Shown here piece by piece: positions 3,281 to 64,000 of a stretch of 64,000 nucleotides of DNA (the first letter of the stretch is position 1; each line of letters starts with the position of its first letter). Made by a program: the position numbers and the translations under genes. Under the pieces are notes generated by a model. The model was not told the DNA's origin, did not search any database, and was given only the letters and a program-made list of their open reading frames with translations. The DNA lies in NCBI RefSeq assembly GCF_900114835.1, contig NZ_FOUJ01000001.1, forward strand, positions 682,001 to 746,000, written 5' to 3'. This DNA is from Methanolobus profundi (lineage in GTDB: Archaea; Halobacteriota; Methanosarcinia; Methanosarcinales; Methanosarcinaceae).

Positions 3281-4498
3281 TCAATTATTATCACTGAACT
3301 TTTTGTCTGGAGCACACTGTCCATTTTTTATGATCCATGCAGTTACGTACACCCAGTTATCAAGTATGGATTCTTTTTCATTGAGAAGCTTGTTAAATGG
3401 TGGATAGTTTTCAACCGGCAGTATCTCGGGGATACCCTTGATCAATGAAAAAGCAGCTCTCTTTCCGGCTGTTTCAGGCAGTAATCCCCACGATATCTCA
3501 TCAACAATGTGAAGCACTGATGTCGTTATACTTACAAGTGCAGGGTCCTTTGAAATTGTTTTAAGCTCATCTATAAATCTACTTTTTCGATTTTCCCCGG
3601 TCATAGAGGAAGCTTCTTTCCAGTATCTGTTCTCATCGATCCCAAATCTTTCAAGTCGTACAAGCATATTACACTGTGAATAAGGTGTCAGATCAGATTG
3701 TTGTGCAAGAGCTTTTTTTGTAGCTTCAGTAACACATTTACCGATGAGTTCTCCAAGTTTGGAATGTTTTCCGGCATCATCGAGATATATGGAGCTACTA
3801 TTATCAGATACCACGGCGATCATATCCGTTCCTGACCCTGTGGCTATTCCATTTGAATACTGGCTTGGGGCCATGAGTTCCTGTACTGCAACTGCTTTAG
3901 CTTCACTTGCTGTAGTGACTGCATTTACCATAGCATAATGTGGGACATTTGCATTGATGATCAAAATAGTATTGATGGTCCCGGGGATCATGGTGAACTG
4001 GCCATTTTCTTGATAATAGGATGCAGGATCACCCGGTCTTCCACCATTAACTTCAATCCCTCCTGTAATTACGGCTGTTACTTCGAGGTTTCTAAAACTA
4101 TGGGTTGTTATTGCAACATTTTTCATATTGGCTGCCGTCATAAGACCAGTGGAGGTTAAAGGTTCCAGACCCAGTTCTTCTGCAATTATCGCAGCATATG
4201 CTGAAATACTCCCGCCCTCAAGTGAGGAGACCTCATGATCTACATCTGATCCGTGCATCACCTGATGATTATAGATATATCGGATATCTTCTCTATAGCC
4301 GCCATTTAACCAGGATGTAGTAAGGGTTTTTCTTCCAGGTGGCAATTCTACTATTATTGATCTCTCATGACGGAATATAAGTTCTCCACCTGATGTTTGC
4401 CATAAGAGATCTTTTGTGGTCTCTCTATCTTTTTCCATTCTATTTGACTTGTATACTCGTGATGCAACTCTATCTTTTTCATCAGTTTTTCCATTCAT
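3281..4498 (-). CDS. cbiZ: Adenosylcobinamide amidohydrolase (CbiZ)
   Basis: CbiZ cleaves the aminopropanol side chain from adenosylcobinamide to give adenosylcobyric acid, letting archaea salvage incomplete corrinoids through their own pathway. The 405-residue protein carries the characteristic sequence block AVITGGIEVNGGRPGDPASY, then IPGTINTILIINANV, AVTTASEAKAVAVQEL and the Gly-rich ATGSGTDMIAVV. The CbiZ core spans about residues 25-270; the remaining ~135 C-terminal residues form a helical extension without a recognised fold. It is the first gene of the four-gene minus-strand operon that continues into the importer, which matches the known pairing of CbiZ with BtuFCD in methanogens. A weak GGTGG Shine-Dalgarno precedes the ATG. 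Confidence 0.9.
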   Translation of the reverse strand: MNGKTDEKDRVASRVYKSNRMEKDRETTKDLLWQTSGGELIFRHERSIIVELPPGRKTLTTSWLNGGYREDIRYIYNHQVMHGSDVDHEVSSLEGGSISAYAAIIAEELGLEPLTSTGLMTAANMKNVAITTHSFRNLEVTAVITGGIEVNGGRPGDPASYYQENGQFTMIPGTINTILIINANVPHYAMVNAVTTASEAKAVAVQELMAPSQYSNGIATGSGTDMIAVVSDNSSSIYLDDAGKHSKLGELIGKCVTEATKKALAQQSDLTPYSQCNMLVRLERFGIDENRYWKEASSMTGENRKSRFIDELKTISKDPALVSITTSVLHIVDEISWGLLPETAGKRAAFSLIKGIPEILPVENYPPFNKLLNEKESILDNWVYVTAWIIKNGQCAPDKKFSDNN

Positions 4499-4507
4499 GT
4501 GACCACC

Positions 4508-4544
4508 GTTTCACAAGGTTTGTTTTTCTGAACAGTTGTGAAAC
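4508..4544 (-). promoter_or_regulatory. Hairpin in cbiZ leader, next to the ribosome-binding site
   Basis: A perfect 9-bp inverted repeat (GTTTCACAA / TTGTGAAAC) with a 19-base loop lies directly upstream of the cbiZ Shine-Dalgarno (4503-4507) in the minus-strand leader. A second, weaker stem built on CCAGG/CCTGG lies at about 4550-4573. The leader is roughly 80 nt if the TATA box at 4603-4612 is used. It may be an RNA control element or a DNA operator. No cobalamin-riboswitch core was recognised. Confidence 0.45.
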
Positions 4545-4602
4545 CATCTGGCCAGGATCTTCGCCCCTGGTCCGGAATTACTAGGTAGCGTCTGGAAAAA
4601 GG

Positions 4603-4612
4603 TATATTTATA
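4603..4612 (-). promoter_or_regulatory. TATA box for the cbiZ-btuFCD operon
   Basis: Read on the minus strand this is TATAAATATA, a near-ideal archaeal TATA box. It places transcription start around 4580 and gives a leader of about 80 nt before the cbiZ ATG at 4498. Confidence 0.6.
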
Positions 4613-4769
4613 GAGTTGATTTTTCCACATATATGTTAGCATAATAACTAATATGGGGGATAGCTATCTTTTCATCGATAGTAAATTCATGGAAAATGCA
4701 GGAATTTTGCTTTTCTAAGGCAGCTATTATTAGTTCAGAAAATATGTTAATGTGGGGAATGCCATATTT

Positions 4770-5066
4770 TTAAATGAGAAAAAGATTTTGAAGAATATGC
4801 AATTCCATATATGATAATTCTTTGTCATTATTCATGTTGTTATCAGTTCTTTTTGTTAATGAGAACACATGACTTTTGCCATAGATATTTCTTTTAACGA
4901 GATCTGCATCTTCTAAGATGCGGATGTGTTTGGAAATACTTGTACCTGAAACTCCCAATTCACTAGCAAGTTCTGTTATGTGCATATCTTTGGCAGAGAG
5001 GGCTTGTAGTATTTTTACTCTTTTTTCGTTGACAATTGCTTTTGTAAACGTATCATTCTTACTCAT
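4770..5066 (-). CDS. ArsR-family winged-helix transcriptional regulator
   Basis: Small DNA-binding protein of 98 residues from the chosen ATG. The wHTH is clear: NEKRVKILQALSAKDMHITE, then the recognition helix region VSGTSISKHIRILEDADLVK and a wing around NIYGKSHVFSLT. No metal-binding Cys pair of the classical ArsR/SmtB type is present in the helix. An in-frame start exists 39 bases upstream (5105), but only the ATG at 5066 has a Shine-Dalgarno (AGGTG, 7-base spacing). It sits between the corrinoid operon and the methyltransferase/CooC cluster and is flanked by copies of TTAGTTCA, so it is the likely regulator of one or both. Its effector is unknown. Confidence 0.85.
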   Translation of the reverse strand: MSKNDTFTKAIVNEKRVKILQALSAKDMHITELASELGVSGTSISKHIRILEDADLVKRNIYGKSHVFSLTKRTDNNMNNDKELSYMELHILQNLFLI

Positions 5067-62021: not shown

Positions 62022-63371
62022 TCATTTTTCATTGACCATCCAGCAGTGGCAATTTGGCTGGAAGATATCCCCGTGTGCAAAATTAGCTGCGATACAACTT
62101 CCTCTGCAAACAGGAAGCCATTTGCATTCCTGACATGTTCCCTTCATATCCGTTGCTTTCAGGCTCCTGAAATAATTGAGGAAACGGGAATTATCCCAGA
62201 TCCATTTGAAATCATGTTCCCTGATATTCTCTGCATCTGCTCCTGAGAAGTAGTTGCATGGAAGTACCTCTCCACTTGAATTCACAGTACAGTAGGATAT
62301 GGCTCCATCACATCCTATTCTGGTATCACCATCTATTCCCTGCTCAGGTGGAGGGCTGAAAGTGCATTCGAACTCCATTGGTGCAATGTTGAGACCGTCC
62401 TCATCTCTCTTTGAATGCAGGAACTCCGTCAGTTCTTTCATCCTCGCAGGTGAAACTTCCAGTTCATCCGCATACTTCCCACGTCCGAACGGCACGAAAG
62501 GGAGGATACGGAATGTCTGTACTCCCATATCCTTTGCCATTTCGTAGATACGGGGAACATTATCAATGTTCATTGTCGTCACGGTCACAGCCAGTGTAAC
62601 AGGAACACCTGCTTCTTTCAGGAGTTCTATACCTTTCTTCGTTCTCATCCAGGAACCGGGATGCTGCCTGAACTCATCATGAATGGCAGGCTCTGAAGAA
62701 TCAAAACTGACCTGCATGGAAGCACCTATATCCGAAAGTCTCTTCGCAGCATTCTCATCTATCATGGTGCCATTGGTAGCTACCTGTATCAGAAGACCTT
62801 TTTGCGCAGCGTATCCGGCAATATCAAAAAAGTCATCCCTGACCATTGGCTCACCGCCACTGAGGATAAGTTGTCTCACTCCGTGATCTGCGAACTGGTC
62901 AATAAGCCTGCAACATTCATCAAGGCTTAACTCATTCCTGCCTGCTTCTCCTGCACTTACAACACAATGCTTACATCGAAGGTTGCACCTTGAAGTAAGA
63001 TCCCAGAGAACACCTGCAGGTGCAGGTACTTTCCAGTAGTTCAGTCGTCCTCCGCGCCACCAGAGCACTCCATCCTTTGTAAGGTTCTCGAGCAGAGGTG
63101 CACTCATACCAAGAACATTTTCTCGCTCGGTCTTATATGATCTTGATATCTCCGTGATCACCTCATCCAGTGTCCTGTAGCCGTCACAGAGCTTCAGCAT
63201 CCAGAAGGCTGCCTCGTTCAGTTCACTCTCCTGTCCGTTCAATGGGTTCTTCATCGTCCAGAGCTCATCCTCTTTTTTGATGCGAAAGGGGAAATAAGGG
63301 ACAAGCTCACCGCTATCCGCGATAGAAAAAGCACCGGGAACATGTCCCGGTCTATTTGTCTCTAAACTCAC
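62022..63371 (-). CDS. Radical SAM/SPASM peptide-modifying enzyme with PqqD-like N-terminus
   Basis: 449-residue enzyme. Residues ~28-105 look like a PqqD/RRE winged-helix peptide-recognition domain (LNEAAFWMLKLCDGYRTLDE, VITEISRSY). The radical SAM core has the CX3CX2C cluster Cys129/133/136 in TSRCNLRCKHCVVSAGEAG, then SGGEPMVRDDFFD. The C-terminal ~120 residues hold a SPASM-type region with auxiliary-cluster cysteines (GCDGAISYCTVNSSGEVLPC, CQECKWLPVCRGSC, CHCW). This is the architecture of enzymes that crosslink ribosomal peptides. Its start overlaps the stop of the Cys-Pro repeat gene by 4 bases, marking that protein as the likely substrate (inference). Confidence 0.9.
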   Translation of the reverse strand: MSLETNRPGHVPGAFSIADSGELVPYFPFRIKKEDELWTMKNPLNGQESELNEAAFWMLKLCDGYRTLDEVITEISRSYKTERENVLGMSAPLLENLTKDGVLWWRGGRLNYWKVPAPAGVLWDLTSRCNLRCKHCVVSAGEAGRNELSLDECCRLIDQFADHGVRQLILSGGEPMVRDDFFDIAGYAAQKGLLIQVATNGTMIDENAAKRLSDIGASMQVSFDSSEPAIHDEFRQHPGSWMRTKKGIELLKEAGVPVTLAVTVTTMNIDNVPRIYEMAKDMGVQTFRILPFVPFGRGKYADELEVSPARMKELTEFLHSKRDEDGLNIAPMEFECTFSPPPEQGIDGDTRIGCDGAISYCTVNSSGEVLPCNYFSGADAENIREHDFKWIWDNSRFLNYFRSLKATDMKGTCQECKWLPVCRGSCIAANFAHGDIFQPNCHCWMVNEK

Positions 63372-64000
63372 TTTACTTCTCCGAGCAGCACCAGTGTCTT
63401 CTTTCTCCAGTCGTTGATCCTTGACTCTGAGAGACCCAGGGTATCCGAGAGTTGACTGATGTTCTTCTGGTTCTCTGTTGCCTTCAGGAAATCGCCCAGG
63501 GTTGAAATGGACCTTGCCTTAAAAAGCGCTGCGATCTCCGGACCAATTCCAACTATCTCTATTATATCTGTCTTCAGTGTGATTATCGGATGTCTCACAC
63601 GGATGTCAGGCGTATATGGCAATGGGTCCGGTCCCGGCAGACAGGAGAGTCCCGGTGATGGCGGACATGCTATATACGGTGAAGGAGGGCAGGATAGCAT
63701 TGGTGATGGCGGACAGATGAAGTCCGGTGCAGGCGGGCAGATGAATGGAGCTGGCGGGCATGCGAAGTGTGGTGATGGCGGACATATCAGATGAGGTGAT
63801 GGTGGACAGATGAAAGGAGCTATCCAGCATGTGATCGGACATGTGACCGCAGTACCAATACCAACAGCAGCAAACGCATTGATGATACTTGCTCTCCAGC
63901 GTGAATAGTGTGGGTTCGCAGCATAGAGATCATCAAGTGAATCAAGAACTGCATCCCGCATATCGCTGAAATCGGAACTTGATACCAGATGTGTTGTAAG
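63368..64000 (-). CDS. Cys-Pro-Pro repeat protein, probable radical-SAM substrate (5' end beyond window)
   Basis: Counting from the internal ATG at 63961, 197 residues. Residues 25-40 are hydrophobic (IINAFAAVGIGTAV), then cysteines at 41 and 45, then eight repeats beginning at Cys 52, 60, 68, 75, 83, 91, 99 and 107. The pattern is CPP(S/A)P plus two or three variable residues, the last decayed to CLPGP. After a Pro-rich hinge, residues ~130-197 form a helix-hairpin-helix-like domain (IVGIGPEIAALFKARSISTL). The frame stays open upstream of 63961 to the window edge and ATG 63961 has no Shine-Dalgarno, so the N-terminus probably lies outside. Not a family I recognise; a modified-peptide precursor or metal-binding scaffold is inferred from the adjacent enzyme. 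Confidence 0.75.
   Translation of the reverse strand, partial: LTTHLVSSSDFSDMRDAVLDSLDDLYAANPHYSRWRASIINAFAAVGIGTAVTCPITCWIAPFICPPSPHLICPPSPHFACPPAPFICPPAPDFICPPSPMLSCPPSPYIACPPSPGLSCLPGPDPLPYTPDIRVRHPIITLKTDIIEIVGIGPEIAALFKARSISTLGDFLKATENQKNISQLSDTLGLSESRINDWRKKTLVLLGEVK
63629..63808 (-). repeat. In-frame 24-bp tandem repeat encoding CPP(S/A)P units
   Basis: Eight imperfect units of 24 bases, one of them 21 bases, inside the Cys-Pro repeat gene. On the plus strand the recurring core is GGTGATGGCGGACA. Length changes are in multiples of three, so the frame is kept. Confidence 0.8.

Follow-up and report, generated by a model that had tools for sequence, protein, structure and literature searches.

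The analysed window, a 64,000-nucleotide stretch of the Methanolobus profundi genome (G000:C7:682001-746000), ends on the right within a pair of minus-strand genes. These encode a radical SAM enzyme and a protease with a Cys-rich tail, with the following features:

62022..63371, minus strand: RRE-radical SAM-SPASM enzyme gene, 449 aa, GTG start (Pfam, 18-member family, AlphaFold2)
63054..63302, minus strand: N-terminal RRE (PqqD-like winged helix), residues 24-106 (Pfam PqqD and strand/helix order of the model)
62496..63020, minus strand: radical SAM core with CxxxCxxC (C129, C133, C136), residues 118-292 (Pfam and 18-member alignment)
62043..62312, minus strand: SPASM domain with seven auxiliary-cluster Cys (Pfam; all seven invariant in 18 members)
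63368..64000, minus strand: 3' part of the M4 protease gene, the remaining 1479 bases lying beyond the window edge
63857..64000, minus strand: Peptidase_M4_C, end of the thermolysin alpha-helical domain, to residue 541
63623..63841, minus strand: Cys-repeat tail, residues 547-619 (synonymous codon turnover in 36/36 invariant Cys/Pro columns)
63371..63574, minus strand: C-terminal helical (HHH/DUF4332-like) domain, residues 636-703 (sub-threshold DUF4332 and model helices)

The two genes overlap by 4 bases (63368-63371), as an earlier note on this DNA had reported. That note took the repeat protein for a small precursor starting at 63961, a reading that had to be abandoned: 63961 is an internal Met of the protease frame, which has no stop before the right window edge. 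In the whole genome the gene spans G000:C7:745368-747479, with its true start at C7:747479, and encodes a 703-aa M4 protease. A protease or exporter had also been suggested as possibly lying beyond the edge; a protease is present, in the same protein as the supposed precursor, and an exporter was not found.

The enzyme was correctly recognized from the start as a PqqD-like/radical SAM/SPASM protein. Pfam matches are Radical_SAM (PF04055, 1e-26), SPASM (4.8e-8) and PqqD (4.5e-5; 24.1 bits against a cut-off of 23.4), and PqqD (PF05402) is above cut-off in all five family members scanned, with homologues at 1.4e-9 to 6.5e-6. Both the CxxxCxxC motif (C129/C133/C136) and the seven SPASM Cys (C354, C372, C413, C416, C422, C426, C443) are invariant in 18/18 members, and the SPASM region follows the seven-Cys pattern CX..GX4C, CX2CX5CX3C, C. 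The CxxxCxxC core, seven-Cys SPASM domain and RRE are those of an RRE-dependent radical SAM/SPASM peptide maturase; in place of a short dedicated precursor with leader and core, the partner is a 703-aa protease.

In the AlphaFold2 model of the enzyme (pTM 0.79), the N-terminus forms three strands followed by three helices, as in RREs. The nearest solved structures are SuiB (best, Z 30), SkfB, anSME, PqqE and CteB. Because these matches span mainly residues 112-447, the assignment of the RRE fold draws on Pfam and the order of secondary-structure elements. No NCBIfam model claims the enzyme, whose matches to the AhbD, NirJ2 and mycofactocin profiles all fall short of the respective cut-offs (for the AhbD heme b synthase model TIGR04545, 226.8 bits against a curated 500). 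The Methanolobus genomes bearing the enzyme also encode a separate AhbD-like paralogue, and identity as an AhbD/NirJ heme enzyme was rejected on both grounds.

The protease and its Cys-repeat tail in Methanolobus

The partner is a thermolysin-family (M4) protease with an FTP and PepSY propeptide followed by Peptidase_M4 (PF01447, 1.9e-28) and Peptidase_M4_C (PF02868, 1.1e-35), and it carries the HEXXH, Glu and catalytic His of the family (HEWTH356, NESMS379, VHIN452). The protein starts MYEPVKKQKEILDGLKK, where no signal peptide was seen by eye (no predictor was used), and the short open frame upstream of the protease start holds no hydrophobic segment in 14/14 genomes. M4 enzymes without a signal peptide seem to be common in Methanosarcinaceae. 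At L069, L075 and similar Methanosarcina-type loci, M4 proteases of 770-790 aa were observed with no evident signal peptide, Cys tail or radical SAM neighbour.

The protease domain leads directly into the Cys repeat (residues 547-619), and a small helical domain follows, so that the repeat is internal, as originally described. The C-terminal domain has sub-threshold Pfam matches to DUF4332 (18.1 bits) and HHH_5, and its model contains five helices over residues 641-700 (pLDDT 61-88). In the AlphaFold model of the protease, made with 14 close sequences, the catalytic domain failed (mean pLDDT 44.5); the usable parts are the propeptide and the C-terminal helical domain, and no structure was predicted for the tail.

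Unit by unit, the tail reads CPIT, CWIAPFI, CPPSPHLI, CPPSPHFA, CPPAPFI, CPPAPDFI, CPPSPMLS, CPPSPYIA, CPPSPGLS and CLPGPDP. The Cys spacing of 8,8,7,8,8,8,8 given earlier is exact, and the eight CPP(S/A)P units described with it are seven CPP[SA]P units and a final CLPGP, preceded by two further Cys (CPIT, CWIAP) for a total of ten. All ten Cys are invariant among the 14 Methanolobus genomes with the tail. Extra units occur in three genomes, so repeat number varies within the genus, and the array is otherwise nearly constant across species. Since 36/36 invariant Cys/Pro columns use more than one codon across the 14 species, the protein sequence of the tail is under selection. Judged by this codon turnover, a chance origin of the repeat is excluded.

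Protease and enzyme are both present in 14/27 Methanolobus genomes and both absent from the other 13, and the 4-bp overlap is kept at 14/14 loci. Methanolobus vulcani, M. bombayensis and M. psychrotolerans are among the species with matching repeat loci. In at least six system-less genomes the flanking genes, for a 65-aa DxWC peptide and SfsA, are directly adjacent, which indicates that the pair is gained or lost together, as a single cassette.

The pairing outside Methanolobus

The DNA of 84,980 genomes was scanned for runs of three tandem CPP[SAG..]P units recurring every 8 residues, a search blind to the enzyme and biased toward CPP at this spacing. It returned 53 stretches, whose flanks were then tested against a profile built from the Methanolobus enzymes. 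Strong radical SAM neighbours (E 1e-99 to 2e-134) were found in four non-Methanolobus contigs, and all four repeats are protease tails. The carriers are astacins (M12A) in Chlorobiaceae (L127; PF01400, 4e-47) and Myxococcota (L129; 1e-45) and subtilases (S8) in two Deltaproteobacteria/Myxococcota MAGs (L108 and L130; PF00082, ~2e-25). Two Methanosarcina genomes were reached via the enzyme profile, and there the partner is a Cys-repeat subtilase (L198; tail fragment L099). Catalytic motifs are intact in all five outside carriers, as in the M4 protease of the window, and none of the five has an evident signal peptide at its start. The earlier note had named repeat homologues without a radical SAM neighbour as grounds for giving up the link; the partner is kept at 14/14 Methanolobus loci and at all other protease-tail loci. 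Its picture of a methanogen system is too narrow, the pairing being found in Chlorobiaceae and Myxococcota as well.

At the astacin and subtilase loci, the adjacent gene encodes a 38-55% identical RRE-radical SAM counterpart. In the enzyme tree there is one clade per protease fold, well separated from the AhbD-like paralogues, and the subtilase-linked clade mixes archaea and Myxococcota; the branches are long, so the sequence in which the three clades split is uncertain. In samples of a few hundred genomes per phylum the enzyme is rare: at E<=1e-95 it is absent from 392 other genomes of the phylum of the Myxococcota astacin carrier and from 295 of that of the Chlorobiaceae carrier, and it occurs in one genome beyond Methanolobus among 393 of the Methanolobus phylum. 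Among Methanosarcina it is found in 2/31. On a generous count, the lineages that can be called independent are Methanolobus, Methanosarcina, Chlorobiaceae and, within Myxococcota, two kinds; with five loci or lineages outside Methanolobus, several of them short MAG contigs, the association is strong and their number is not large.

Most of the 53 repeat stretches lack a radical SAM gene of the family and look like low-complexity or antisense frames; Pfam analysis of ten of these gave no protease. A Humidesulfovibrio locus (L128) was rejected as a further case, having only distant radical SAM genes and no repeat ORF. Plasmids contained no relative of the enzyme, and viral contigs only distant radical SAM proteins.

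Additional genes were observed at the two Myxococcota subtilase loci. A BTAD-type regulator lies upstream of the protease, and in both loci a conserved Cys-rich protein of 779-784 aa is encoded convergently with the radical SAM gene (L201:1964-4303, plus strand; L202:2005-4359, plus strand), with no Pfam match for the L201 copy. Directly downstream of the radical SAM gene and overlapping it, L201 also has a 151-aa ORF (4400-4855, minus strand) whose product resembles the N-terminal part of the subtilase next to it (32% over 53 aa, E 6e-6) and is possibly a stand-alone propeptide-like inhibitor.

Comparison of the carriers defines a shared unit, [I/V/L]-C-x-x-[A/G/S]-P. The +3 residue is A, G or S in 77/79 CxxxP units (24/26 distinct five-residue units), and +1 and +2 vary (P, Y, L, R, H, W and others). 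The rule of two Pro after each Cys, proposed from the window, is not general, as CYRAP, CRRAP and CLRGP occur in other carriers. The final unit before the linker tends to C-x-[A/P]-G-P (CLPGP, CLAGP, CAAGP, CWAGP), and the Chlorobiaceae tail has three CPPGI units besides. The two Methanosarcina genomes are 97% identical in the post-array sequence (DNA 96%) and 96% in the enzymes, whereas their arrays are almost wholly different (CPPAPKI/CPPGPIR versus CLRGPIQ). This contrast identifies the Cys, the small residue and the Pro as what is kept. The region after the array differs by carrier, being a helical domain in M4 and an FDPxC-type end in S8 and M12A.

A protease tail as the probable substrate, and competing readings

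The tail and a rare RRE enzyme are all that the three unrelated protease folds have in common, which argues that the enzyme acts on the tail; on these comparisons of genes, the tail is very probably its substrate. We consider it probable that the pair is a two-gene module, in which a dedicated RRE-radical SAM/SPASM enzyme installs Cys-centred crosslinks on the Cys-repeat tail of a protease. The earlier proposal of a RiPP-type enzyme working on a Cys repeat thus survives as to the repeat, very probably acted upon, and fails as to the classical small precursor, since the repeat belongs to a protease tail.

In such a module, the RRE would hold the substrate protein, probably by sequence beside the array (for example the C-terminal domain, or a C-terminus of the ...FDPxC type), and modification of the successive repeats, in the cytosol, would fall to the SPASM enzyme. 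The form of the Cys-x-x-small-Pro unit points to about one crosslink from Cys in each repeat. From what is conserved in the unit we infer the chemistry, most likely a thioether from the invariant Cys to a carbon of the +3 small residue or the +4 Pro, and likewise the role of the modified tail, which may serve the protease as a stiff rod or anchor devoid of thiols. Against the module, the enzyme core is by profile nearest to small-molecule heme-synthesis enzymes (AhbD, 226.8 bits, far under the cut-off), the presumed recognition sequence differs among carriers, and the loci outside Methanolobus are few.

The main rival keeps the enzyme-tail pairing and changes its outcome. The array would be the core peptide of a self-processing RiPP and the C-terminal domain its follower, with the fused protease as a built-in leader peptidase that releases the array as the product. 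The Methanosarcina arrays, which diverge like core peptides beside a 97% identical flank and 96% identical enzymes, speak for a released array, whereas the constancy of the Methanolobus array, nearly unchanged across species, speaks for a stiff, retained tail. Variation of repeat number in Methanolobus fits release, as do three protease types on one kind of array, if cleavage is their job, and in the Qhp system a subtilisin-like protease does cut a radical SAM-crosslinked protein (PMC7876137). However, no exporter or immunity gene recurs at the loci, and the active sites of the M4, astacin and subtilase carriers are normal, so that any substrate is conceivable. We regard this alternative as possible but rather unlikely.

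It is less likely still that the tail stays unmodified, as a metal- or heme-binding or disulfide region, and that the enzyme acts on another target. Cys-Pro dipeptides are known heme regulatory motifs, and the nearest profiles of the enzyme are heme enzymes. This reading was lowered by CYRAP, CRRAP and CLRGP in the other carriers, where Cys-Pro is not the rule. It also leaves one rare enzyme beside three protease folds hard to explain, the RRE points to a peptide substrate, and the cell has its separate AhbD-like paralogue.

Another small peptide as the substrate is very improbable. The candidate is the conserved 65-aa peptide encoded upstream on the same strand in 13/14 loci, but its distribution largely rules it out: it is present in 27/27 Methanolobus genomes, 13 of which lack the enzyme, as well as in three other genera, and it did not turn up at the Methanosarcina or bacterial loci. 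In M. profundi it lies ~3.3 kb past the right window edge (G000:C7:749273-749467, minus strand; L002:9273-9467). The peptide is acidic with two D-x-W-C motifs (IDTWC, VDAWC), the three other genera belong to the same family, and it has no Pfam match; it is possibly precursor-like or metal-handling. Anti-phage defence was set aside, as PADLOC gave only general viperin and subtilase matches.

Taken across domains, the pairing inclines us, by a small margin of belief, toward a system in which a radical SAM enzyme builds Cys-x-x-small-Pro crosslink arrays on unrelated protease tails, as a rigid rod or as a RiPP-like product with a fused leader peptidase. RRE-bearing radical SAM/SPASM enzymes are usually regarded as makers of small-peptide products; here one enzyme lineage appears as a modification tool for large proteases of three folds, moved between archaea and bacteria. 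If true, this would extend radical crosslinking to enzyme tails, offer a naturally occurring repeat substrate (C-x-x-[A/G/S]-P, as many as ~15 units) for studies of iterative radical chemistry, and name a two-gene module open to direct expression and testing. No description of such a protease-tail/radical SAM system was found among open-licence papers.

Relation to known systems

The protease shares the FTP-PepSY-M4-M4_C architecture, HEXXH and catalytic His of the thermolysin family M4, and differs in its lack of a signal peptide, its added Cys-repeat tail and helical domain, and its radical SAM partner. For the enzyme, the nearest curated sequence profiles are those of AhbD and NirJ2 (heme b synthase and relatives), from which it is set apart by scores below half the curated cut-off, an N-terminal RRE and the separate AhbD-like paralogue.

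Ranthipeptide and sactipeptide systems (CteB, SkfB, SCIFF, freyrasin) have in common with it the combination of RRE, radical SAM and SPASM and regularly spaced Cys donors, and CteB (5wgg) and SkfB (6efn) are among the best structural matches of the enzyme model. Enzymes of the ranthipeptide type form non-alpha thioethers at spaced Cys (PMC8326336). The substrates of these known systems are short leader-bearing precursors, whereas here they would be proteases of 470-703 aa, with Pro-rich units and no Asp/Thr acceptor series.

In the maturation of quinohemoprotein amine dehydrogenase (QhpD/QhpC/QhpE), the SPASM radical SAM enzyme QhpD introduces several Cys thioethers into a protein in the cytosol, and a subtilisin-like protease is encoded in the operon (PMC7876137). 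The likeness would lie in a SPASM enzyme that works on a protein rather than a small peptide, in the company of a protease. The Qhp substrate, a leader-bearing enzyme subunit with Asp/Glu acceptors, is a separate protein from the Qhp protease, whereas in the present case array and protease form one chain, with three protease folds involved.
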